Below, piece after piece: positions 2,021 to 20,336 of a DNA stretch of 21,921 nucleotides. Source of the stretch: a virus; the IMG/VR virus record IMGVR_UViG_3300031658_000159, positions 1 to 21,921 of that record; one strand, written 5' to 3'. The translations under genes and the position numbers were made by a program. The notes below the pieces were generated by a model. The model searched no databases and was not told where the DNA came from. It was given only the letters and a program-made list of their open reading frames with translations. The stretch's first letter is position 1. Each line of letters begins with the position of its first letter.

Positions 2021-5000
2021 TGCTTAGTCCATTCAGCTTCAACCCGCATGGATCGTTGCTTGTCTTTTTGAGTGAATAGTTTATTCAGTGCCTTGGCACG
2101 TGCCTTTAGACCAAAATCACGAATCATAGTGCCCCTAGCAGCATTCGTATGACTATTATACACATTAGTCATCATACTAGCCATCTCGCCTTCTGCTATT
2201 TTACTGCCTTTGCCCTTATCCCATTCTTTGAGCCTTTTTTGGTAAGCAGGGCTATTGTACATATATTCCCAATGTTGCTTTAAGTTCATGCCCTTGAGAT
2301 TAAAAGCAGTTTGTTTACCGATACGTTTTGTAAATTCTTTCCACTCGCTAGGTTTTAGTTTAACGCCTGTATCCATACCCGGCACATTAATTTCTAAAGG
2401 GGGTGGTCGAAAGTCTACACCTAGCGTATCTTTATCACCAAATAGATGTACTAGGGCAGGTGTTTCGTCTGCTTTACGTATACGCATAAATGACCACACT
2501 GGGTCACTAAAGATAGCTGGTATCCCACTACCAGTTTCGCCTCGCTCATGCTTTACCTCGTCACCTAATACATTATTTTTAGTCAAAATCGCCTCAGAAT
2601 GTACCCCGGTAGCAAGTAACTGGGCTGTAAACCCACTCCAATCTTGTGTGGTACGCTCCCGAATATTTTCCGTCTCCATTTTATAAGGTCGTAACTCCGC
2701 TTTACCCGGATGGCGTAATGTTTCATTCGCACGAACAAACGCAGGTTGCATCGTACCCATAATGGACTTAATCGCTCTTGTATTGGTGCCGGGGTCAGAA
2801 GAGCTATCCGCTATAACACCCAATACCTTATGCAGACTTGGTGCCCATGTTGGGTCAATTAAATTAGTTTGCAGACTAGAGTATGCTTTGTGCATAATAT
2901 CACTTAACGGAGCATCTTTATGCGTCTGCCGGATCGCTTCTATATCTGCACCCATACCCAAAAGGTTACTGTATGGAGCAAAACGACTGACATCCACCCA
3001 GTACTTCTGATTAGCTTTAGCATAAGGTGACTTAACCTTCAAGGACTTTGGTGGGCGTACACCTGTTTCTTTGGAGTTAGTATCCTTCCAGTATTCACGA
3101 TGACCAGAGCCAGTCATATCACCACGTGAGTAGAGTTGCGCTCCGTATAGCATCATCATGCTACCGTAGGCCATACGTCCATACTCTAGCATTTTTGCAG
3201 AACCGCCTCTTTGGAACTCCTCGCTTTTAAGACCCGGCACCAACCCTAGAGGAGAATGCTGAATCGTCCATTTAGGTATATTAGCGAGTACTTTGATAAA
3301 AGGAATACCAATTTTTAATACAGGCAAATGATAAGTAATCTTGCTGAGGCCATCAGCTAACATACCGTTCTTTTTTTGGAATGTAACCAGATCAGCCAGT
3401 TCTTTCATCTGCTGTTCAAAAGGATAGTCTACACCAGCCATGCGCTCTTTAAACGTACCCGGATTATCAATTATATCCTTGTATAACTCTTGTGCCCCAT
3501 CTGCTTTCCTACCGTTAGCGAACGCATACTTCCAAGCTAAGCTATGCTTTTTCATTTCACTAGCAATGGTCTTAACAAACTCATCTTCCATTAACAGAAA
3601 GCGACCAGAGGATCGGGTAAGGGAACCCATATAGTCTAGCCCTAGACCTATCGCTGTACCCTCCATATCTAGTGATTTAGCAGCGATATGTTGCATACCG
3701 TAGTTGTCAATTTTAGCGGTGCCCCACTTAGACTCTCCAGTAATACCAGCTTTAAACGACAATCTAAATGCTTTGGTGAGTCCAGCCATAACACCGTACA
3801 TTGATCCCCACGCTTCACGTAGAGTGACATCCTCAGTACCTAGCATATGTGTCATTCCGGGAATCTTAGACGCTCCTACTGCGACTAATTGGGAACCGAT
3901 ATGACTAGCTATATTGGCAGAACCAATCACCATATTCATAATATGGGTGGCTGGATTGCTTAGTAGGCCTTGGTTAATCCATGCCTCAATAAACATATCC
4001 ATCCCACCAGACTTGAGGCCATCTTTAATTGTGTTCGCTACACCCCTAGGCCCAGTCTCTAAACTCGCCTTACCAAGCATAGCAGCTAAACGCCCAATCT
4101 CAGTCCCACCAAATTTAGTACTTTTGAGTAGGTTAGCAAGCTCTGGTGAGGATAAAATATCTTGTGTGACATCACCTAATACATGATTGTCTTTTTTGAT
4201 CGCTTTCCATGCCGACAACGATTTACCTAATGTAGTACCTAGATTTCGATCACCTTTAATCAGTTCCTGCATATCTATATGATCGACTAAATTACGTACA
4301 AAATTACTTTGTATTTGTGTAGCCATCTCATCGCTTACTTCACCAGCAGCAGCCAAACCTAATTCTTCTACCCTAGTAATTGAGGTCATTAAATTATTAG
4401 TAGTCGATTTAGCGAGATGAGCAAAAGCATAAAGTTGAGTAGGATTTAATGCGGTATCTTCTCGTAATAACCTAGCGACATCTACATCTATTCCAGACTG
4501 GTTCAGTAATTCTTGCCCCTGTTTTGCCCAGTTAGCGGTTGTCTCAGCGACCTTCTTAGCTCCTTGACTTTCTAACAGTTGGTGCGTTAAATCATTCAAG
4601 ACTAAAGTTTTTGCTTCTTTACCTACCGCAGCGTCTAGCTGCTCAGTAAACGCTTTCAATCCTTCTTCTGTTTGTATGAATTGTGAAGCCGTTTTCCCTG
4701 TGGGAGCTTGAAAAGTTAAGCGTTCTGAGGTAGTCGTAGGATTAGGTAGTTCGCCAATCTTAGACTTTAGCAAAGAGCTTATAGCTTCATCATCAACAAA
4801 CTCTGCCTTGCCATCTATAATTTGCAACACTCTAGCTGTTTGCTTAGGCTGCACCCCTTTGGCTTGGCGTACCTTCATGGCGTGAACTTGTTTTTGCAAA
4901 CCTAACGCTTCGATAAACCATTCATGTACCGGAGCAATATCTAATGCTTTTTGCCCACCTGCTTGAATTGCGCCTCCTACAGCACGTAAAGCAGGCATCA

Positions 5001-5868: not shown

Positions 5869-8800
5869 TTAGTTGTATTGCAATTTGCTGAGTAATATAG
5901 CTGCCCCAGCAAGGAAATTTAATTTCTTATTATTCAATAGAAGTTTTCTTAGTTTAGCATCATTTTTCGGCAGAGCAAGCGTCCGTAGCTTCTCAATGCT
6001 AAAACCTGCTGCTGCTGCCATTTGTGGCCCCAGATTCCCTTCAGGTTTGACTACATCACCAAAAGACTCTCTAGTGACCTGCAATTCGCCAACTACACCA
6101 GTTTTAGAGACTTTCTTAGTAGTACCGAAATTAGTCTCAGCCCCGTAAATACTAATCATGTAATCTAAAAATTCATCGTAAGGCATTTTCAGATAAGTTA
6201 AATCATCAATAAACGAAGACTTAGCTTTGTCTAACACAGAAATCATACCATCTAAATTACTCTTCTCTTTTGGGCTTAACCTCTCAGTGTAATATGCCTC
6301 TAAGCGTTCTTTAGACCTAGCAGAATATTCTGCCTGCTGTTCAGGTGATGAAGCATTATAATTCTGTGCGAGAAAGTCTGACATCATCAAAGTAACTTCT
6401 TCACCTGCGGGGGCATTCTTTTCTAGTGTAATTGTACCGTCTATTGGCTCTGTAGCGTATTGACTCAGTTCCTGCTGTCGTTGCTCGTCTGAGGTTGGTT
6501 CCCATAACCCCTTACCCAGCACTTGCTCTACCGCAGGTACTACTGACTCAATTAAAGTATCAAGAGGGGGGATTGGTGGTGTATCCATTGGCATCATATC
6601 TGATTCTGGGGTAGTGGATTTTGGTTGTCTAACAGGGGAATTTGGGAACTCTGCCTCTAATTGACGATCTACCGCTGCCAATTCTTTTGATCCTCTTGCA
6701 GGCCATCCAGCTTGTTTAGATAACTCAAGTGATCTTTTCACTTTATCTGAATTAAGAAGCGAACTTGGTAGTGATTTTAACGCAGGGCTATTAATCATAT
6801 TCGTCTTCATTTTTGCTGCTGCGTTATGTAGGGATTCGTTTACAGTATCTGCAATCGCCTGTTTTGCTTGAATTGCTCCCTTGATTGCAACATTTTTAAC
6901 TTCAGTAGCATAATCAATTGCAGGGTCTAATGGATCAAAGACTGAGCCTAGAGTACGCAAATCATCGCCTACAGCGTCTACAATGGTTGCCCATGTTTGA
7001 CCATCCCATATAGGGGTTTCTTCAGAGCCTAGGGTAATAACCCCATTGGCCTTATCTACTAAATTTTGTAAACGTAGCGTTTCAATCATATCTGATAAGC
7101 CCGTATTTTCTTGTTCCTTTAATACCGATAATTGTTCTGCCAGTGCTTCCGGGGTTTCACTAGCTGCTTTCTTCTCTTCCGCAGCTTCAATTTCCTTTTG
7201 TACTTCTAAGGCATTCTCAGCTTGCTTAGCCCGCATTTCCTCGTTCGCCTTCTTCAAAACTTTGGCTTGGGCTGCATTCTCTTGTTTAAGAATAACTCGT
7301 TGCCCAGTCGCAGCCTTTTCCTGATCTATAGCAGAACTCATTAAACCGTTCCTAACTCGCATCTTAACATCTGTCGCAAGAGACTTGTACCACTCATCAT
7401 ATGGGGTCTTTTCCATAATTTCTTTGTTAAATCGCCCTGTACCAGATTCCGCTTCAGTTTTTAATTGTGTTTCTACTGAGGCAATCACAGCAAGTAACTC
7501 TGGCGTTAAGGCTTTCCGTGGCCCAGTCCCTTTAGTAGATAAATTTAAAAAATCTTGCTGGAAGTTAGCATTATTTGCTATTAATGAATTGACCATAATC
7601 CCGTCTGGAGTACCTTCTCCTGATGCAAAAATATCACTTACAGAAGTGTTGACCAAATTTGGGATATAACTTGATCTCTTAGTAATATTCTTCGTATTTT
7701 CAGCACTAAACTTCTGGCGCATAGCGATTACTGTCGCTGCATTGGTATCAAATCCATCTAACATCTTTTCTACATTAGCGATATTCCATAAGCCGTTATT
7801 GTATAAATCAGAATCACGCCTATGTCCAGCCATCGTTGTATCATCTGTATATTGGGCAACCTGTAATTGGTCAGCAGCCCCGCTAAACCATCCTTCTAGT
7901 TTATGCGTCAAAGCATCAGCAGTAGCTTGCAATTCCGTAGGTAACTCAGCAATAACAGAACGATAAGCGTCATATTGCTCAATACTCACGTGTCCTTTAG
8001 CGATTTGGTCAGTCATTTCAAAAGTCAATGAGTCAACCTGCTCACGATATTGATTAGTAACAAACTTTCTCTCTGCAATCTCCTTCGTGTTTGCAACAGA
8101 AATACGCTTAATGTACTGATCTTCATAATCCTGTGTAATTTGCGTCCGTAGATGATCTGGAATCTCCATCTGTATATGCCCCATTGATGCAAGCATACCT
8201 TCCTCGCTAGGAATATCTCCAGACTGCACCAACCCATCCGTATATGCAGACGCAGCTAAACTCACTCGTTTATCTAGTACTCCACGATTCAATTTCTGTA
8301 AATCAAATACCGCCCCGTCTGGGGTAATACCTCCTAGGTCAACTTTCTTAAGATATAGAGCAGCTAATTCTTTTTGTTTAGATGGTATGTCATTGACTAG
8401 ATTTTCAGACATATCTTGTTCTAGCGTAGCAATCTGTGTATCAATTTTTGAGATCGTCTGCTTATGCAATAAAAGAGAAGTACTACTATGAAAGGTACTG
8501 TATTGATCGCCAGCAGTTTTCTTTAGCCTAGAGAACCGAACTTTATTTTCAGTCGTTGGGGGCACAGTTTCACCCCATTGGCTAGTGAGATTACCAACAG
8601 ATTGATTGTAGTTCTTAGTGACCTCTTGTTTATCGGCTAATGTAATAGCCTCCGCAAAGGCTTGCTTGTATTGCTGGTTTTGTGTATCCCAGTCAGACAT
8701 TAAATCTAATGTCTTATGTTCTTTTGCCGTCTTATCTAGTAAAACCGCAGCATTAACACCTGCTGATACCATGCCAACCAACTCACCAGATACTGCTTGG

Positions 8801-8952
8801 GAGGCTAAAGCGTTATTCATGCCAATACTATAATCTGCCATTGCAATCTTTTGCACAGGCACATTAGAGCTTAATGCTTGTGTTTGAGCAGACAAGACAG
8901 GGTTAGCGACACTTTTTCTCTCTGTAACTAATAGAGGTTTACCTATTGCCAT
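5869..8952 (-). CDS. Internal virion protein with C-terminal lytic-transglycosylase-like domain, 1027 aa
   Basis: This long, mostly helical protein sits at the position of T7 gp15. Residues 545-615 are charged and coiled-coil-like (repeated KKANEEM, EIEAAEEKK). Residues 770-800 are proline-rich and look like a linker. Residues 926-1027 resemble the SLT/gp16 transglycosylase fold: IYGAETNFG with E939 as the likely catalytic glutamate, then SKTGVVGELQVTRESF, and finally LNFLAGAAILLSKL, matching the N-h-xGA-xhL helix of that family. The protein stops right there, so the usual AYN-containing last part of the fold is missing or reduced. In T7 the transglycosylase is at the N-terminus of gp16, so a C-terminal location in the preceding protein is different. 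AGGAT lies five bases before ATG 8952. Ejection role inferred; domain call moderate. Confidence 0.83.
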   Translation of the reverse strand: MAIGKPLLVTERKSVANPVLSAQTQALSSNVPVQKIAMADYSIGMNNALASQAVSGELVGMVSAGVNAAVLLDKTAKEHKTLDLMSDWDTQNQQYKQAFAEAITLADKQEVTKNYNQSVGNLTSQWGETVPPTTENKVRFSRLKKTAGDQYSTFHSSTSLLLHKQTISKIDTQIATLEQDMSENLVNDIPSKQKELAALYLKKVDLGGITPDGAVFDLQKLNRGVLDKRVSLAASAYTDGLVQSGDIPSEEGMLASMGHIQMEIPDHLRTQITQDYEDQYIKRISVANTKEIAERKFVTNQYREQVDSLTFEMTDQIAKGHVSIEQYDAYRSVIAELPTELQATADALTHKLEGWFSGAADQLQVAQYTDDTTMAGHRRDSDLYNNGLWNIANVEKMLDGFDTNAATVIAMRQKFSAENTKNITKRSSYIPNLVNTSVSDIFASGEGTPDGIMVNSLIANNANFQQDFLNLSTKGTGPRKALTPELLAVIASVETQLKTEAESGTGRFNKEIMEKTPYDEWYKSLATDVKMRVRNGLMSSAIDQEKAATGQRVILKQENAAQAKVLKKANEEMRAKQAENALEVQKEIEAAEEKKAASETPEALAEQLSVLKEQENTGLSDMIETLRLQNLVDKANGVITLGSEETPIWDGQTWATIVDAVGDDLRTLGSVFDPLDPAIDYATEVKNVAIKGAIQAKQAIADTVNESLHNAAAKMKTNMINSPALKSLPSSLLNSDKVKRSLELSKQAGWPARGSKELAAVDRQLEAEFPNSPVRQPKSTTPESDMMPMDTPPIPPLDTLIESVVPAVEQVLGKGLWEPTSDEQRQQELSQYATEPIDGTITLEKNAPAGEEVTLMMSDFLAQNYNASSPEQQAEYSARSKERLEAYYTERLSPKEKSNLDGMISVLDKAKSSFIDDLTYLKMPYDEFLDYMISIYGAETNFGTTKKVSKTGVVGELQVTRESFGDVVKPEGNLGPQMAAAAGFSIEKLRTLALPKNDAKLRKLLLNNKKLNFLAGAAILLSKLQYN

Positions 8953-8960
8953 AATTTATC

Positions 8961-9779
8961 CTAATATGTAATTGCTTGAGAAGGTGCCCCTAGGTTAGCT
9001 GCACTAACGCCACCAGAAGCACCATCAATACCTGTAAAAGAAGTACTTAGACCGCCACCACCACCGCCACCGAAGGTTCCACCTGCCCCAGCATAAGCCC
9101 CGGCTGCGGATGAAATACCGTCAGCTATACCACCAATCAGGGCTGCGTTAGCTTGCTGTTTCATTTGATACGCCTTAGACATCCCAGCATACATATTCAT
9201 ATTACCTTCATTAATTATATTAGACCGTTGAATATCAGAAGCATACTGCTGTAATACAGCTTGTTGCATAGTAGCATTGTAATCAGATTTACCTTGATAA
9301 CGCCTCATAGCAGCAGATTGCTCTATACCAGACTGAGCTTGTGCCCCACGAAACTCTATATTCGACAAGTTAAGAGCAGCAGCATGAGCATCAGCAAAAG
9401 CTACGGTAGCTGGGCTACCCTGCATGGTAACGCCTGAGCTTCCCCACCTTGCTCTTTTTTCTGAAGTGAATATGTCATACTGCCTTGTAGCTATTTGTAC
9501 GTCAAAATCAGTCTGGGCGATCTGTTCGTCAACCTGACGATCAATTAGAAACGCATCATAGGACGCACGATCTGCTACAACTTCTGCATTACGCTCAGTG
9601 ATATTTCTTTGGATTATGCCCCTGTCCTTTTCCATCTGGGCATTAATGTCACTAATCTGCTTATTATACTGGGCTGTGGCTGCTGCTGATTTAGAAGAAG
9701 CCTGACCAGCTTTATAGCCAGAAACACCTTTAGCTACACCAGCCCCACCAGCTACTCCTGCTGCTACAAGACCAACCAT
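8961..9779 (-). CDS. Internal virion protein B-like (T7 gp14 position), 272 aa
   Basis: The protein opens with a Gly/Ala-rich hydrophobic stretch (MVGLVAAGVAGGAGVAKGVSGYKAG), followed by an alanine- and glutamine-rich helical part, a typical pattern for gp14-like ejection proteins in podoviruses. Residues 30-90 look coiled-coil-forming, residues 110-125 read RWGSSGVTMQGSPATVAFAD, a segment I associate with the same group, and residues 215-245 are glycine-rich with seven consecutive glycines. It begins at ATG 9779, overlapping the stop of the DUF5131 gene by one base (TAATG), so translation is coupled. It lies directly upstream of the two larger ejection proteins, giving the order gp14, gp15, gp16. 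Length is somewhat above T7 gp14 (196 aa). Confidence 0.8.
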   Translation of the reverse strand: MVGLVAAGVAGGAGVAKGVSGYKAGQASSKSAAATAQYNKQISDINAQMEKDRGIIQRNITERNAEVVADRASYDAFLIDRQVDEQIAQTDFDVQIATRQYDIFTSEKRARWGSSGVTMQGSPATVAFADAHAAALNLSNIEFRGAQAQSGIEQSAAMRRYQGKSDYNATMQQAVLQQYASDIQRSNIINEGNMNMYAGMSKAYQMKQQANAALIGGIADGISSAAGAYAGAGGTFGGGGGGGLSTSFTGIDGASGGVSAANLGAPSQAITY

Positions 9780-10390
9780 TAGTTAGCCTCCCATGTATAA
9801 GATTCGTTTAGTGTATGTGCTACACCCTGCTCATCACACTGGCGTATTAGGTCTTCAGCCCACTCAATATCCATTGGTCGTTTCATACCCCATGTTTCCT
9901 CAACAATACCTACATAGTCTATCGCATTTAAATTAGCGTTAGGGAATGACCCCAGCATTGGACATGCAGAAACAAACCTGTATTTAGCAGGAATATCTCG
10001 TAAGTAATCTAGTCTCCACCTATATCTACCAGACTCTACCGCCACACCCAAATGTATATTGTCAGACCATTCAAACTCGTTAGCTATACAAGCTGCTCTT
10101 TCGATACGTTTAGTCGTGATCTCAAAAATATGGTGTCTAGCGTTATTCATAGTCTTGAATATAATCTTCAAATTATTAACTGATACAGACTCATGAAACA
10201 AGTCGCTACCGTGCGCTACTAGATATTTTGTAGGTATTACCTCTAGTTCCGGCACTTCCAGCTTATCCATACCCACTCTAACTGAGTAGTCTAACCCGTT
10301 TTTTTCATGGTACCAATAAGATGGGCATGAATCGCAACCATGGGTAAGTCTTTCGCAGCCAGTGACTATCTGCCAATTGATACTCTTCAC
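9779..10390 (-). CDS. DUF5131 / phage Gp37-Gp68 family three-Cys protein
   Basis: The 203-residue protein follows the PF07505/COG4422 pattern closely: INWQIVTGCERLTHGCDSCPS with C12, C19 and C22 (family TGC-x6-GC-x2-C), then HGSDLFHESV (61-70), HHIFEITTKRIERA (86-99), NIHLGVAVES (111-120), LRDIPAKYRFVSACPMLG (130-147) and a reduced C-terminal strand-helix unit. The usual family segment with GGESG and the FFKQWG end are replaced by YVGIVEETWGMKRP and AHTLNES. The family has a cysteine motif reminiscent of radical SAM proteins, but no reaction has been established that I know of. The start is GTG 10390, overlapping the GNAT stop as GTGA. It sits within virion structural genes and is short for its family (many are 220-380 aa). 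The family call is confident; function is unknown. Confidence 0.85.
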   Translation of the reverse strand: MKSINWQIVTGCERLTHGCDSCPSYWYHEKNGLDYSVRVGMDKLEVPELEVIPTKYLVAHGSDLFHESVSVNNLKIIFKTMNNARHHIFEITTKRIERAACIANEFEWSDNIHLGVAVESGRYRWRLDYLRDIPAKYRFVSACPMLGSFPNANLNAIDYVGIVEETWGMKRPMDIEWAEDLIRQCDEQGVAHTLNESYTWEAN

Positions 10391-10881
10391 TTATGATCCC
10401 AAATAGCGTACATACAATTATCAAGATCACCCCCACAATAATTGTGTAATGTACCTTCATAAACAAATCCAAGACGTTCTGCAAACCGTTTCAGCATATC
10501 GTAGTCATCCACAATCTGTGCTTGTACTCTTTTGAGCTTATACTTATCCTTGAAGTACTTTAAGTAGAACTTAATGACCTTCATGTACGAAAACTTGTTC
10601 TTAGAGATACCGGGAGAACCGATTACCCAGACTTCTCCAACCCCTTCCCAGAGGATATTTAACCCACCTATACAAAATATTTCTCCATCTACGTAGCAAG
10701 TATACGCTTCTACTGCCTCTTTGCCTATAGAATTGGCCCACTCTGTATCTGATAACTTAACTGCTTTTTTGATTACATCTTCGTGTGGTCTAACTACTAA
10801 TCTTTTAAAATGAGAAAACTTGTATGGTCGTATTGTAATCTTACCCTTACATTCTAGCGGTGCGTGGCTAATCGCTAACAC
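10387..10881 (-). CDS. GNAT-family acetyltransferase-like protein
   Basis: This 164-residue protein shows a degenerate GNAT fold: IFCIGGLNIL (beta strand), VWVIGSPGISKN (strand and a possible acetyl-CoA loop region), a helix to KVIKFYLKYFKDKY, RVQAQIVDDY (strand) and the diagnostic ML-KRFAERLGFVYEGTLHNYCGG block near residues 128-152. The canonical Q/RxxGxG/A loop is not obvious, so acetyl-CoA binding may be weak or altered. The start is GTG 10881: it is the first possible start in the frame, directly follows an in-frame TGA, and has AGGAG six bases upstream. It overlaps the nozzle gene by 14 bases. T7 has gene 13 in this place. Similar phage GNAT proteins occur among virion genes, but the target of acetylation, if any, is unknown. 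Confidence 0.75.
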   Translation of the reverse strand: MLAISHAPLECKGKITIRPYKFSHFKRLVVRPHEDVIKKAVKLSDTEWANSIGKEAVEAYTCYVDGEIFCIGGLNILWEGVGEVWVIGSPGISKNKFSYMKVIKFYLKYFKDKYKLKRVQAQIVDDYDMLKRFAERLGFVYEGTLHNYCGGDLDNCMYAIWDHK

Positions 10882-12970
10882 TCAATTCTCCTGCTAATGA
10901 TATTAAAGTCATGCCTAATGGCTGTGTTTGTTTTATATTAATCGTAGCGTCCGACTCTTTCCACCCAAAATTAGTAATATCGTGTTGACCTGTGAACGTA
11001 GGGGGTGCAGAATCCATAGGATCACCACCACCTCTAAAATATAATTGCTTGCCGTTCACTGTAATCCCTAGAGTTTGATATAGATTTAAGATAATTCGAT
11101 TCCAACCCTTCTTCTTACCAAAACTTGCACCATCAGCTTGTGGTACCTCTGGGCTTAATGTTACTAGCTCTGTGACATAGGGTAATCCAATGTAGGCTGA
11201 TGTTACCGCTACCGACAAAACGATTGAACCTTCTGATACAACTGCGTCTGGGAAAACTGCTCCATCACCTACTATACTAACTGTTTGGCCTTCAAGATGA
11301 CCTAGCCCAGAAAGAGTGGCGGTAGCTGATCCAGAATATTTCAATCCTGAATCTACAAAAATAGTATCATCTAAATATTCTATAGTACGAACTGTTGCAC
11401 CAGCTATAGTACGCTTAACGCTGATCCAAAGATCATCAGACAATCCATCTGCTGAAGGAATAACAGCTACACTTTCAACTTCTGTATTAGTCCCACCAAT
11501 AGGATGTTGGTGCCAAGCTACTACCTGCTGATCCCTTTGGTACGTAAGACCCAATAGCACCCCATCTGCACGGACTGACCATATAATAGAGTCCGGCTCT
11601 TGCTGATATGCCATGTGACTAATACCGTCACCCGTTATGTCTTCCGCTAGAATAGTCAAGTCTGGCGCAACGAACCCTTCTACGTTCAAGTCAAAGATCA
11701 TTTGTCTTAGTTTCTTAGTAGCCCGTTGGTTAAAAATAACAGCCCTACCAGAAGTTATAGGCGTGATTGAACTAGAACCATACTTAGTTTCTTGTACTAC
11801 ACGCACATTAGAAGGCGTAACTGGTGCGCCATTACCATGCAATTTAAACTCACCACCTACTGTACCGATCAGTAGTACGTCAGAAGCCTTGAGCCACCGT
11901 ATGACATTTACATCATCTGTAGCTAAAGTGAAGGCAATAGATTCATCATCCAAGCCAGTACCTTGATCCATGTTTAAAAAATCCCCAGACTTACTAGCCC
12001 AGATTGTTTGTGGTTTATTATCTGACCCTGCCCAATACAACCGTTCCTCGAAGAAAGTAACACAACGGGGGTAATCTCCAGCACCAGCTACAAAATCTGA
12101 AGGTTTGTTGGAGAAGGAAAGCGTAGCAAGAGTCCATGCAATATCGCTGGTTCTTGTAAGTTTACGTGGGGCGTGACTTGCGTGGGATATGTATAGGGTG
12201 TCGGCTGATTGGGCAAAGTACACATCAAATATTTGTGCAGTAGTAAACGGTGTAACAATCTCTACTGGCTTTCCAGCAGTACTAACCCGACCATTATCCT
12301 TGTATACACGTATATATAAGTTACCAAATTCTAAAATATAGGCTTGCGTTATACTGAACTCAAATCGTACTAAGCGTATCTTAGCATCTTGAGTAGCTAC
12401 TTTAACTGTAACTGTATCTAAAGTATGTGTTGCCCCAACGGTATGTTTAAATCCAATAAATGTAGCGGAGCTAAGAGCGATAAACTCTATAGTATGTGTT
12501 GCAACGGCATAAGAGGTTGAGGCTAAAATATCGACCCCACCAGTCGTAGTACCTATTTGAACATTGATTGCACCAGTACCAATAGTGAAACTCATCACAT
12601 ATCGTTTACCTGCTACTGTGACAATTTCATCTTCTGCCCAACCATAGTTACTGGCATCAACAGAAACAATATTCATCAGGTTAGTTGCATGGGCAATAGA
12701 GCTACCAGAGCCTACACTTTTATCTGTCCAACCTGTAAGATTAGACGCAAATGTTCCGTTAGCAACTAGCTCAGCACCACTTGCTATACCCTTAGCTTCA
12801 GCAACGTAACGAAAACCACCCCGTCTAACTACACCGCCATGCGGGAGACTAAAGGCATTCTTCTGTGTCTGTAGCCCATTCTTATATTTATTTATATCTA
12901 CTCGACCATGTAGCCTAGCGGATAACTGCCCTGCTGTAAAATTGGTTTGTATAGGCCATACTTTTGCCAT
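10868..12970 (-). CDS. Tail nozzle / tail tubular protein B-like, with carbohydrate-binding-like insertion
   Basis: The N-terminus (QTNFTAGQLSARLHGRVDIN, then NAF-S-LPHGGVVRRGG-FRYVAEAKG) is the hallmark of podovirus tail tubular protein B/stabilization proteins, the nozzle that closes the tail in T7 (gp12) and relatives. At 700 aa it is near the usual length. After residue 61 the family normally goes straight on to a K-h-R-L-h-x-F-E-F-S block; here that block begins only at about residue 196 (DAKIRLVRFEFSITQAYILEF). Residues about 64-193 intervene and begin GAELVANGTFASNLTGWT, a typical start of jelly-roll carbohydrate-binding modules. The middle and end contain beta-propeller-like repeats. 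It starts directly after the stop of the tail tubular A gene with only a weak upstream AGG, so translational coupling is likely. Confidence 0.9.
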   Translation of the reverse strand: MAKVWPIQTNFTAGQLSARLHGRVDINKYKNGLQTQKNAFSLPHGGVVRRGGFRYVAEAKGIASGAELVANGTFASNLTGWTDKSVGSGSSIAHATNLMNIVSVDASNYGWAEDEIVTVAGKRYVMSFTIGTGAINVQIGTTTGGVDILASTSYAVATHTIEFIALSSATFIGFKHTVGATHTLDTVTVKVATQDAKIRLVRFEFSITQAYILEFGNLYIRVYKDNGRVSTAGKPVEIVTPFTTAQIFDVYFAQSADTLYISHASHAPRKLTRTSDIAWTLATLSFSNKPSDFVAGAGDYPRCVTFFEERLYWAGSDNKPQTIWASKSGDFLNMDQGTGLDDESIAFTLATDDVNVIRWLKASDVLLIGTVGGEFKLHGNGAPVTPSNVRVVQETKYGSSSITPITSGRAVIFNQRATKKLRQMIFDLNVEGFVAPDLTILAEDITGDGISHMAYQQEPDSIIWSVRADGVLLGLTYQRDQQVVAWHQHPIGGTNTEVESVAVIPSADGLSDDLWISVKRTIAGATVRTIEYLDDTIFVDSGLKYSGSATATLSGLGHLEGQTVSIVGDGAVFPDAVVSEGSIVLSVAVTSAYIGLPYVTELVTLSPEVPQADGASFGKKKGWNRIILNLYQTLGITVNGKQLYFRGGGDPMDSAPPTFTGQHDITNFGWKESDATINIKQTQPLGMTLISLAGELSVSD
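10888..10892 (-). promoter_or_regulatory. Ribosome binding site that fixes the GTG start of the GNAT gene
   Basis: AGGAG lies six bases before GTG 10881, inside the 3' end of the nozzle gene. An in-frame TGA stands immediately before the GTG, so no earlier start is possible. Confidence 0.7.
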
Positions 12971-13549
12971 TTAGCGTAACCTTACGTCTGTCAAAGTATC
13001 GGTTGCAATAATTTCTGGAGTGCCTTCTTGTGAATCTACGGTACGTGCATCACGAACAACTGAATCATACATTTGTCCCATGAGTGTCATAGTACCAGAA
13101 GAACGTGTAACAGGATACGCCATTTTCCATGCCAAACGAAATACTAACGCTTGGTAAAATAACGCATCAAACTGAGTAGGGTCTTCCACACGCTGAACAT
13201 AAGTAATATCAACCGTAGACTCCTCAGTATACAACTCACGCCCTTGTATAGCGAAGTCAAGGTAGATGTCACCCGTTACTGTACGCACATCTAGTATACG
13301 TAAGCAATACGGATCAGTAGGTAATGTAAATTTAAACTCCCAATCTACAATAGGCGTAGCTTCTAATGAAGCTAGGTTTGCATTGCCTATCGCAAAATTC
13401 CATCTATGACTACGCAGGAGCGCATCTCTCTCACTAGCGTAGAAACGATTAATCAACACAGCATTAGAATCGTCATCATTAAAACTGGTAATCGTATTAG
13501 CCCCTAGAAGCAATAACGACTCGTTAGCTAAATCAACTTGAGAACCCAT
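12971..13549 (-). CDS. Tail tubular protein A-like (head-tail adaptor)
   Basis: The 192-residue protein has the signature of tail tubular protein A (T7 gp11, 196 aa): an N-terminal helix with ANESLLLLGANTITSF-NDDD, then RFYASERDALLRSHRWNFA and a beta-rich middle ending in a helix with LVFRLAWKMAYPVT. These proteins form the ring between portal and nozzle. GGAGA lies five bases before ATG 13549. The gene is preceded by a stem-loop and followed without a gap by the nozzle gene, matching the usual A-then-B order. Confidence 0.9.
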   Translation of the reverse strand: MGSQVDLANESLLLLGANTITSFNDDDSNAVLINRFYASERDALLRSHRWNFAIGNANLASLEATPIVDWEFKFTLPTDPYCLRILDVRTVTGDIYLDFAIQGRELYTEESTVDITYVQRVEDPTQFDALFYQALVFRLAWKMAYPVTRSSGTMTLMGQMYDSVVRDARTVDSQEGTPEIIATDTLTDVRLR

Positions 13550-15000: not shown

Positions 15001-15024
15001 GAGTTGTCTACACCATGTAGGCTC
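15001..15024 (-). other. Weak stem-loop before the major capsid gene
   Basis: A five-base-pair stem (CTACA/TGTAG) with a three-base loop, flanked by a GAG/CTC outer pairing with unpaired bases between, lies in the 57-base gap between the small cysteine protein and the capsid gene. It could be an RNA processing or stabilising element ahead of a highly expressed gene. The U-run that follows on the transcript is poor, so I do not call it a terminator. Confidence 0.25.
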
Positions 15025-15266
15025 TATTTGCGTGAAGATTTGGTTGTCCGTTTCGGGGCCGTTAGCTTCACAATATTTGGTTTCTCCACAACAACTGGTA
15101 TGCGGGAACCACCGGGGCATATCGTATAAAATGTTTCAGCAGAAGTTTGCCGATCATAATATGTGCAATACCCATATTGTTCGGGTGTGGATTTACTACC
15201 AACAGTGCGCTCTCTGTGAGTAAATTGTCCACAATCAGAACATTTAATGTTTTCTTTAATTGTCAT
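15024..15266 (-). CDS. Small four-cysteine, putative zinc-binding protein (80 aa)
   Basis: Cysteines 9, 12, 34 and 50 (IKCSDCGQF, YGYCTYY, TICPGG) give a C-x2-C ... C ... C arrangement compatible with one zinc site. The C-terminal 20 residues are strongly basic (KLTAPKRTTKSSRK). The gene overlaps the scaffold stop as ATGA and has GGAGG four bases upstream, so it is translated together with the scaffold. I do not recognise it as a named family. Its position between scaffold and capsid genes suggests a head-assembly or nucleic-acid-binding role, but that is inference. Confidence 0.75.
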   Translation of the reverse strand: MTIKENIKCSDCGQFTHRERTVGSKSTPEQYGYCTYYDRQTSAETFYTICPGGSRIPVVVEKPNIVKLTAPKRTTKSSRK

Positions 15267-18809: not shown

Positions 18810-20336
18810 CTACTCGAATACATCGTAATCGGCTACTGCGCTATCCTGCATTACAGTAACATTTAAATAACCTGCTTCAAAGCCTAAAGCACAAGTAGCT
18901 AAAGCATCAAAACCATGAGATGCCCAGTTATGCAGAGGCCGATTCTTGTAACAACCGTGTTTGTCATCCCATTCTTTACGGTAATTCTTCAAACAAGTCA
19001 ATCCACGACCACATTTATTCTCATCAAAGTAGTACTGTGGAAATAAAGCACGTACACTTTCTATTTTGTCCATTACATCATTAGGACGGGGTACTGTCTC
19101 AAAGATTAAGCCCTGCTCCCTCGCAAATTCCTTCCGGGTCTTACCAATGGTGAAGTCTCTCACCTCAATATCATGCGGTGCAAGGTGCTTGCCGTATCTA
19201 TAATCTCTTTGCTTCAGTAGATTAATGTAGTGGGTCAAGCCCTCGTCAGAATTTTCATAGTAATCAATAAAGCGTACACAGTCTTGGTGTATTTGAAAGA
19301 ACCAGATACAGGTTGTGTCATTAATACCTAAATCCCATGCAGTATGTACAGGTAGTCTACGTATATAAGGTATCGCATCAATCCTACCGTCTACATAAGC
19401 AGATTGTATGTGCCTAGACAGGTAAGCCCCTTCGATACTCTGCTCAAATGCTTCTTTAGCTGTAGTTGGGTATTCCCGTTTAACATCATCACCTAACTCA
19501 GACAGCTTTTTAGAGTACCAAGCCTTCTGCGCCTTACTAAAAGTCATGTCTAGGTCGAGACTTTGTTGCTCAAAGTAAGTTTCTACGTCTGGAGGGATGG
19601 GTGCGCTAGTCTCTAGCTTATAAGCCTTCTCCTTATACCAAGGAAAGAAGAAGAACCTGTAGTCCATAGTAGTCAGTTCTTTATGAGCTAGGTTATCAAG
19701 CTCTGCATCACGGCATTTAGTAAAGAAGTCACCTTCATTACCCATAGCAGTAGATTCCATAGCTAGCAAAGCATCTCTAGGCAGAGTTTCAATACTACCA
19801 GTGCGCACCTCTCTAGCTTTCTCAGGTTCTTTCGCACAAATCTTACCGTACTCAGTGATTAGTAACTGACTGAGGGTACCAGAGCGCATAGAAGTAGACA
19901 CACGAAAGGCCGATCCATTACTAAAGATCAGCCTCTTACCTTGGTCGCTCTCTAACCGTACAGTATCTTTAATTAGAGTACGCAATGCGGGTATATCACG
20001 GGCTATATTGTCCCATACATCCTTAACCTTCGTCCTAAAGATTTCTTCTGCGTTCTCTCTAGTATCAGCGATGATACCAGCTTCACGATTAGCGTTAAAC
20101 AAGCAATCATCCAAGAAGAGTACAGCAAAAAAGGTTGTTACACCTAACTGCCTAGCCTTTAGAACGATTAATCTATTCCATATATTGTCATATAGTTCCT
20201 TCTGCGCCCAATTAAGGCGAAAGGGAATTAGATTACTACCCTCTTTAGGGCGTATATGGTAAAGATTGTTTAACCGCCATGTCCTACTCTTAATTAGTTG
20301 TACTAGGTTCTTCGGGGTCTTTGGTTCCACTAACAT
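18810..20336 (-). CDS. terL: Terminase large subunit
   Basis: The 508-residue protein has the two expected domains. The ATPase has a variant Walker A, LKARQLGVTTF (59-69), a strand with AGIIADTRENAEEIF (86-100) and the Walker B-like LLITEYGKI (158-166), where a Thr stands before the catalytic Glu162 instead of Asp, as in many podovirus terminases. The nuclease has HTAWDLGINDT (D335), RFIDYYE (D358) and NWASHGFDAL (D477) as likely metal ligands. It would cut and translocate concatemeric DNA into the head through the portal. Two starts compete: ATG 20336 touches an AGGA with no spacing, while GTG 20330 two codons later has AGGA six bases upstream. The gene overlaps the small-subunit gene by 41-47 bases. 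Confidence 0.95.
   Translation of the reverse strand: MLVEPKTPKNLVQLIKSRTWRLNNLYHIRPKEGSNLIPFRLNWAQKELYDNIWNRLIVLKARQLGVTTFFAVLFLDDCLFNANREAGIIADTRENAEEIFRTKVKDVWDNIARDIPALRTLIKDTVRLESDQGKRLIFSNGSAFRVSTSMRSGTLSQLLITEYGKICAKEPEKAREVRTGSIETLPRDALLAMESTAMGNEGDFFTKCRDAELDNLAHKELTTMDYRFFFFPWYKEKAYKLETSAPIPPDVETYFEQQSLDLDMTFSKAQKAWYSKKLSELGDDVKREYPTTAKEAFEQSIEGAYLSRHIQSAYVDGRIDAIPYIRRLPVHTAWDLGINDTTCIWFFQIHQDCVRFIDYYENSDEGLTHYINLLKQRDYRYGKHLAPHDIEVRDFTIGKTRKEFAREQGLIFETVPRPNDVMDKIESVRALFPQYYFDENKCGRGLTCLKNYRKEWDDKHGCYKNRPLHNWASHGFDALATCALGFEAGYLNVTVMQDSAVADYDVFE

Follow-up and report, generated by a model that had tools for sequence, protein, structure and literature searches.

The DUF5131 family and its usual context

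Proteins of the DUF5131 family, also called phage Gp37-Gp68 (PF07505, phrog_2045), are encoded on hundreds of viral contigs and on plasmids, and are common in temperate phages. PADLOC files the family among candidate defence proteins. In the literature searched, no tested function was found for these proteins, nor any mention of 'DUF5131' or 'PDC-M41'. The initial annotation of the DNA described below had regarded them as usually accessory and often paired with TcmP, and wider counts bear out both statements. All seven annotated phage records inspected place canonical DUF5131 among accessory-type neighbours, namely integrase, methylase, repressor, replication or recombination genes. The neighbours of the copy in a Nostoc phage are mostly unannotated, with an integrase nearby. 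TcmP is found in 31 of the 50 viral contigs that carry canonical copies.

We analysed a shortened DUF5131 protein that is instead encoded in a virion operon. The window, a virus record 21,921 bases long, is a 21.9-kb fragment of a marine phage. TcmP had been noted as absent here, and indeed no TIGR04474 match was obtained in the window or in any of the six contigs with the short form. One of these related contigs measures 37,973 bp and is probably complete because it has a 127-bp terminal repeat.

A short-form DUF5131 gene within a late operon

The late genes of the window run in the order TerL, portal, scaffold, MCP, tail tubular protein A (TTA), tail tubular protein B (TTB), GNAT, DUF5131, gp14-like, long internal proteins and fibre (Table 1). 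The GNAT gene upstream of DUF5131 is gp13-like. The GNAT and DUF5131 genes overlap by 4 nt (GTGA), and DUF5131 and the gp14-like gene by 1 nt (TAATG), so that the described coupling to both neighbours was confirmed. The gp14-like gene probably has its ribosome-binding site (GGGAGG) within the 3' end of DUF5131. A separate promoter for DUF5131 was not indicated, as promoter-like sites were not in excess (8 versus 12.2 in shuffles). TAATG also forms the 3' end of every short-form copy whose 3' end is visible.

Table 1. Coordinates of the short-form gene, its neighbours and related features (window positions unless a contig is named)
Feature	Position	Strand	Remarks
gp14-like internal virion protein	8961..9779	minus	phrog_418, 4.7e-07
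TAATG overlap: DUF5131 stop / gp14-like start	9777..9781	minus	
Short-form DUF5131 gene	9779..10390	minus	203 aa, GTG start, TAA stop, C12-x6-C19-x2-C22
CX6CX2C loop, codons 12-22	10357-10325	minus	from translation
Cys12 codon, first Cys of CX6CX2C loop	10355..10357	minus	from translation
GTGA overlap: GNAT stop (TGA) / DUF5131 start (GTG)	10387..10390	minus	
GNAT-like protein	10387..10881	minus	164 aa; phrog_4177, phrog_308 internal virion protein, phrog_1249 acetyltransferase
TTB-like protein	10868..12970	minus	phrog_376
TTA-like protein	12971..13549	minus	phrog_394
Small Cys-containing ORF	window 15024-15266; L002 1126-1368; L043 1441-1668		
Varying stretch after GNAT	L040 from 7823; L099 after 4459; L100 after 4462; L101 after 4456; L102 after 4459		

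Other genes of the late region were also inspected. Among named phages, HTVC010P-type pelagiphages carry the nearest relatives of the window TTB, and the nearest relatives of the large terminase (18810-20336; 43-44%) are in prophage-like or siphovirus records of Pseudomonas, Erwinia and Klebsiella. Judged by these nearest relatives, the late region is a mosaic. A small Cys-containing ORF of 75-80 aa lies between the scaffold and major capsid genes in both clades of relatives defined below; its window copy had no match in Pfam or PHROG. The 1027-aa internal protein (5869-8952) matched no family in these two collections, and its C-terminal part resembles a lytic transglycosylase by eye (IYGAETNFG...GVVGELQVT).

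Family membership and conserved residues

The window protein matches PF07505 over residues 5-201 with an E value of 6.4e-37 and 127.8 bits (cut-off 28.9), so the family assignment made from the letters alone was retained on profile search. Further matches are to phrog_2045 (5.9e-31) and to the PADLOC profiles PDC-M41B/PDC-M30B (3e-41 and 5e-40). The translation contains all the elements first listed, that is, C12, C19 and C22 together with the family segments SDLFHE (62-67), TTKRIER (92-98), LGVAVE (114-119) and LRDIPA (130-135). Conservation was computed over 59 sequences of the family. Sixteen columns are invariant, in canonical and short forms alike: the Cys triad (C12, C19, C22), G18, V58, the SDxF residues S62, D63 and F65, H87, the TKR residues T93, K94 and R95, E119, R126, S141 and P144. 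The segments GGESG and KQWG, reported as lost from the window copy, are both replaced in it, and they are lost or replaced across all short forms, with part of KQW retained as KHW in one clade (clade B). Both segments are common in canonical members, and the PF07505 profile does not require them. The short form, as aligned, is a distinct derived form of DUF5131 in a virion operon, in which the Cys loop and the core residues remain while segments characteristic of partnered canonical members are gone.

The closest GenBank phage matches to the window protein are about 30% identical and all long-form. When the short-form alignment was searched against genome contigs, only one distant canonical copy, in Streptomyces, was found. 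TIGR04471 (radical SAM mobile pair protein A) matches the window protein weakly over its full length (1.5e-08, 34.4 bits) and canonical DUF5131 more strongly (1.7e-22). Membership of the window protein in TIGR04471 was rejected because the cut-off of that model is 355 bits. A canonical DUF5131 protein of another contig (L091 538-1257) also matches Pfam GP88 (PF17338) at 5e-5, slightly below the cut-off, so that GP88 may be part of this superfamily as well.

Recurrence at an apparently variable junction and probable transfer between phages

Relatives were gathered by searches with TTB, two GNAT proteins and DUF5131 proteins. DUF5131 was found 3' of GNAT in six contigs from two divergent podovirus clades: the window and L002 in clade A, and L043, L089/L090, L096 and L097 in clade B. 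The L002 and L096 contigs stop within DUF5131, and the downstream gene lies beyond the contig end. The initial annotation had named, as a result that would speak against it, a survey in which the family proved a routine neighbour of TTB genes. That survey was run, and the idea of a routine neighbour was rejected, since 24 clade A and 5 clade B relatives, 29 distinct relatives in all, have no DUF5131 after GNAT. In these relatives, GNAT runs almost straight into the gp14-like gene. On the GNAT tree, the pattern of presence and absence takes three changes.

The junction looks like a variable slot, because in clade B relatives that have no DUF5131 the stretch from GNAT to the point where the conserved part of the gp14-like protein starts holds varying short coding sequence (Table 1). 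At another junction, L097 has a 75-aa ORF (4548-4775) that resembles an AP2-type DNA-binding domain by eye; it lies after the gp14-like gene and before the virion gene that follows.

The short form is not confined to one genome, nor to podoviruses. In contig L088, it lies immediately upstream of a gene for central tail fibre J, again with TAATG, and tail-fibre-like proteins come next. Only 21 residues of the gene upstream of it are on the contig. The nearest named relatives of this J protein are in Roseobacter phages and pelagiphages that have tape-measure genes, so L088 represents another phage type.

In a tree of six short forms and 32 other family members, the six fall on one side of a branch with an SH-aLRT support of 100. 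The window and L002 copies group with L088 and not with clade B (support 97). Identity to L088 is 47% for the window copy and 47% for the L043 copy. Between the window and L043, identity is 42% for DUF5131, 28% for GNAT, 48% for MCP and 54% for TTB. Simple vertical inheritance with the operon is unlikely because L088, the nearest copy to the window pair, comes from a different phage type. The simplest account of the tree is that the short form was moved by transfer between late operons. The dN/dS of DUF5131 is 0.075 between the window and L002 and 0.10-0.13 in clade B, which indicates that the gene is under purifying selection in both clades. The corresponding values for GNAT are somewhat lower (0.018 and 0.05-0.06).

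Predicted fold and probable relationship to radical-SAM proteins

The AlphaFold2 model of the window protein (mean pLDDT 92.8, pTM 0.88) is a six-stranded partial TIM barrel. Its main strands span residues 2-6, 54-58, 88-93, 112-117, 137-142 and 159-162, and the Cys loop follows the first strand. In a Foldseek search of the PDB, where all matches of this model were at E 0.03 or worse, spore photoproduct lyase (SPL) was in the top matches (probability 0.99, TMq 0.62-0.64, E 0.03); NifB, viperin and MiaB were also among the matches. With the model of a canonical DUF5131 protein, SPL was the first match (3e-4, probability 1.00). Sequence searches of solved structures found no credible relative.

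Profiles were also compared. The canonical DUF5131 profile matches an SPL-like radical-SAM family of Actinomycetota at 7e-5; the match covers 135 columns and aligns the Cys loops and an LTK segment. Reversed and shuffled controls gave 0.17-0.62, and the six short forms by themselves gave no match to the SPL-like profile (0.19). The seed of the SPL-like family matches Pfam Radical_SAM, and by its motif we read the family as COG1533-type. One phage record labels a DUF5131 protein as a spore photoproduct lyase. The Foldseek matches and the canonical profile match make it very probable that the short form has a radical-SAM barrel of the SPL-like type. Binding of SAM or of the substrate may be altered or gone in the short form, because the E of SxEPL, the GG of GGES and the strand-end NSM have been lost.

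Possible functions of the short form

The locus is probably a portable late-operon cassette for a stand-alone, SPL-like radical-SAM barrel protein with a CX6CX2C iron-sulphur loop. The protein would be co-translated with virion proteins through the overlaps at both ends, and the gene order suggests that this stand-alone enzyme is made late in infection. Its predicted chemistry is a radical reaction that depends on SAM and a [4Fe-4S] cluster. Nucleic acid would be slightly favoured as the substrate, since SPL comes closest among the solved folds and most canonical copies have DNA methylase, repressor, replication or integrase genes nearby; the substrate may also be a protein. Without GGESG, KQWG and the C-terminal tail, the short form would then lack the partner or substrate side but keep the cluster site. 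A more specific version, which seems rather unlikely, is that a partner-free DUF5131 lineage has specialised for phage late operons and moves between unrelated phages. As a radical-SAM enzyme, it would act while the virion is assembled or enters the cell, and its target for chemical modification would be a virion protein, the genome being packaged or DNA that is damaged.

Gene position makes a cargo in the virion, or an enzyme that modifies it, possible. The protein might be packaged or ejected with the gp14-gp16-like proteins, or might modify one of these by radical-SAM chemistry. The gene strictly adjoins the gp14-like gene in two podovirus clades and the tail fibre J gene in another phage, and starts and stops are coupled at these places. 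However, the 29 relatives without DUF5131 have the same internal virion genes and manage without it, and the downstream proteins of the podoviruses and of L088 belong to different families. We therefore consider a virion-coupled role unlikely. The patchy occurrence at a site that varies, after GNAT and before the gp14-like gene, the PADLOC matches, and the frequency of the family in temperate phages and plasmids would also suit a moron for inter-phage competition or defence. Such a gene, descended from the candidate defence family (PDC-M41B/M30B) but working alone, would act late against competitors or host functions. The family is, however, listed only as a candidate for defence, its partner TcmP is absent here, and defence genes are not typically expressed late, so that this function appears quite improbable.

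Patchy occurrence, together with the missing C-terminal tail and the disappearance of several strand-end motifs of canonical members, could instead mark a decaying or catalytically dead remnant, retained solely for translational coupling of the gp14-like gene. Against this stand the purifying selection in both clades (dN/dS 0.075-0.13) and the fact that three lineages retain the core together with all three Cys. What has been lost is common to the whole clade and not scattered, and relatives translate the gp14-like gene without DUF5131. A dead remnant is thus very improbable.

Beyond the initial annotation, the analysis adds that the short form recurs and forms one clade, apparently a portable one. 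With the evidence for an SPL-like barrel, a candidate defence family acquires a chemistry that can be tested. The short form, reduced by nature, free of a partner and linked to virion genes, shows which residues are kept by selection, and its patchy occurrence supplies matched phage pairs with and without DUF5131.

Comparison with known systems

The late region of HTVC010P-type pelagiphages has TTA, TTB, an acetyltransferase and internal virion proteins in the identical order. Its TTB is about 43-47% identical to that of the window, and DUF5131 is missing from the site in all three isolates inspected. Canonical DUF5131 matches nearly the whole length of the short form, but it typically has 236-275 aa, compared with 203-206 aa. 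The short forms do not have the canonical IEWT N-terminus, CYA, NSM before SD, the E of SxEPL, the GG of GGES, most of FFFKQWGG or the conserved C-terminal segment. Whereas the canonical gene is usually accessory and often accompanied by TcmP, the short form resides in a late operon without it. The radical-SAM model TIGR04471 shows a weak but consistent relationship to DUF5131. SPL and SPL-like (COG1533-type) radical-SAM proteins share with DUF5131 the predicted barrel and the Cys loop after strand 1, and canonical DUF5131 matches a profile of the SPL-like kind. The SPL-like proteins have the usual CX3CX2C whereas DUF5131 has CX6CX2C, identity is about 13%, and the substrate sides do not lend themselves to comparison; in the radical SAM superfamily, spacings other than CX3CX2C also occur.
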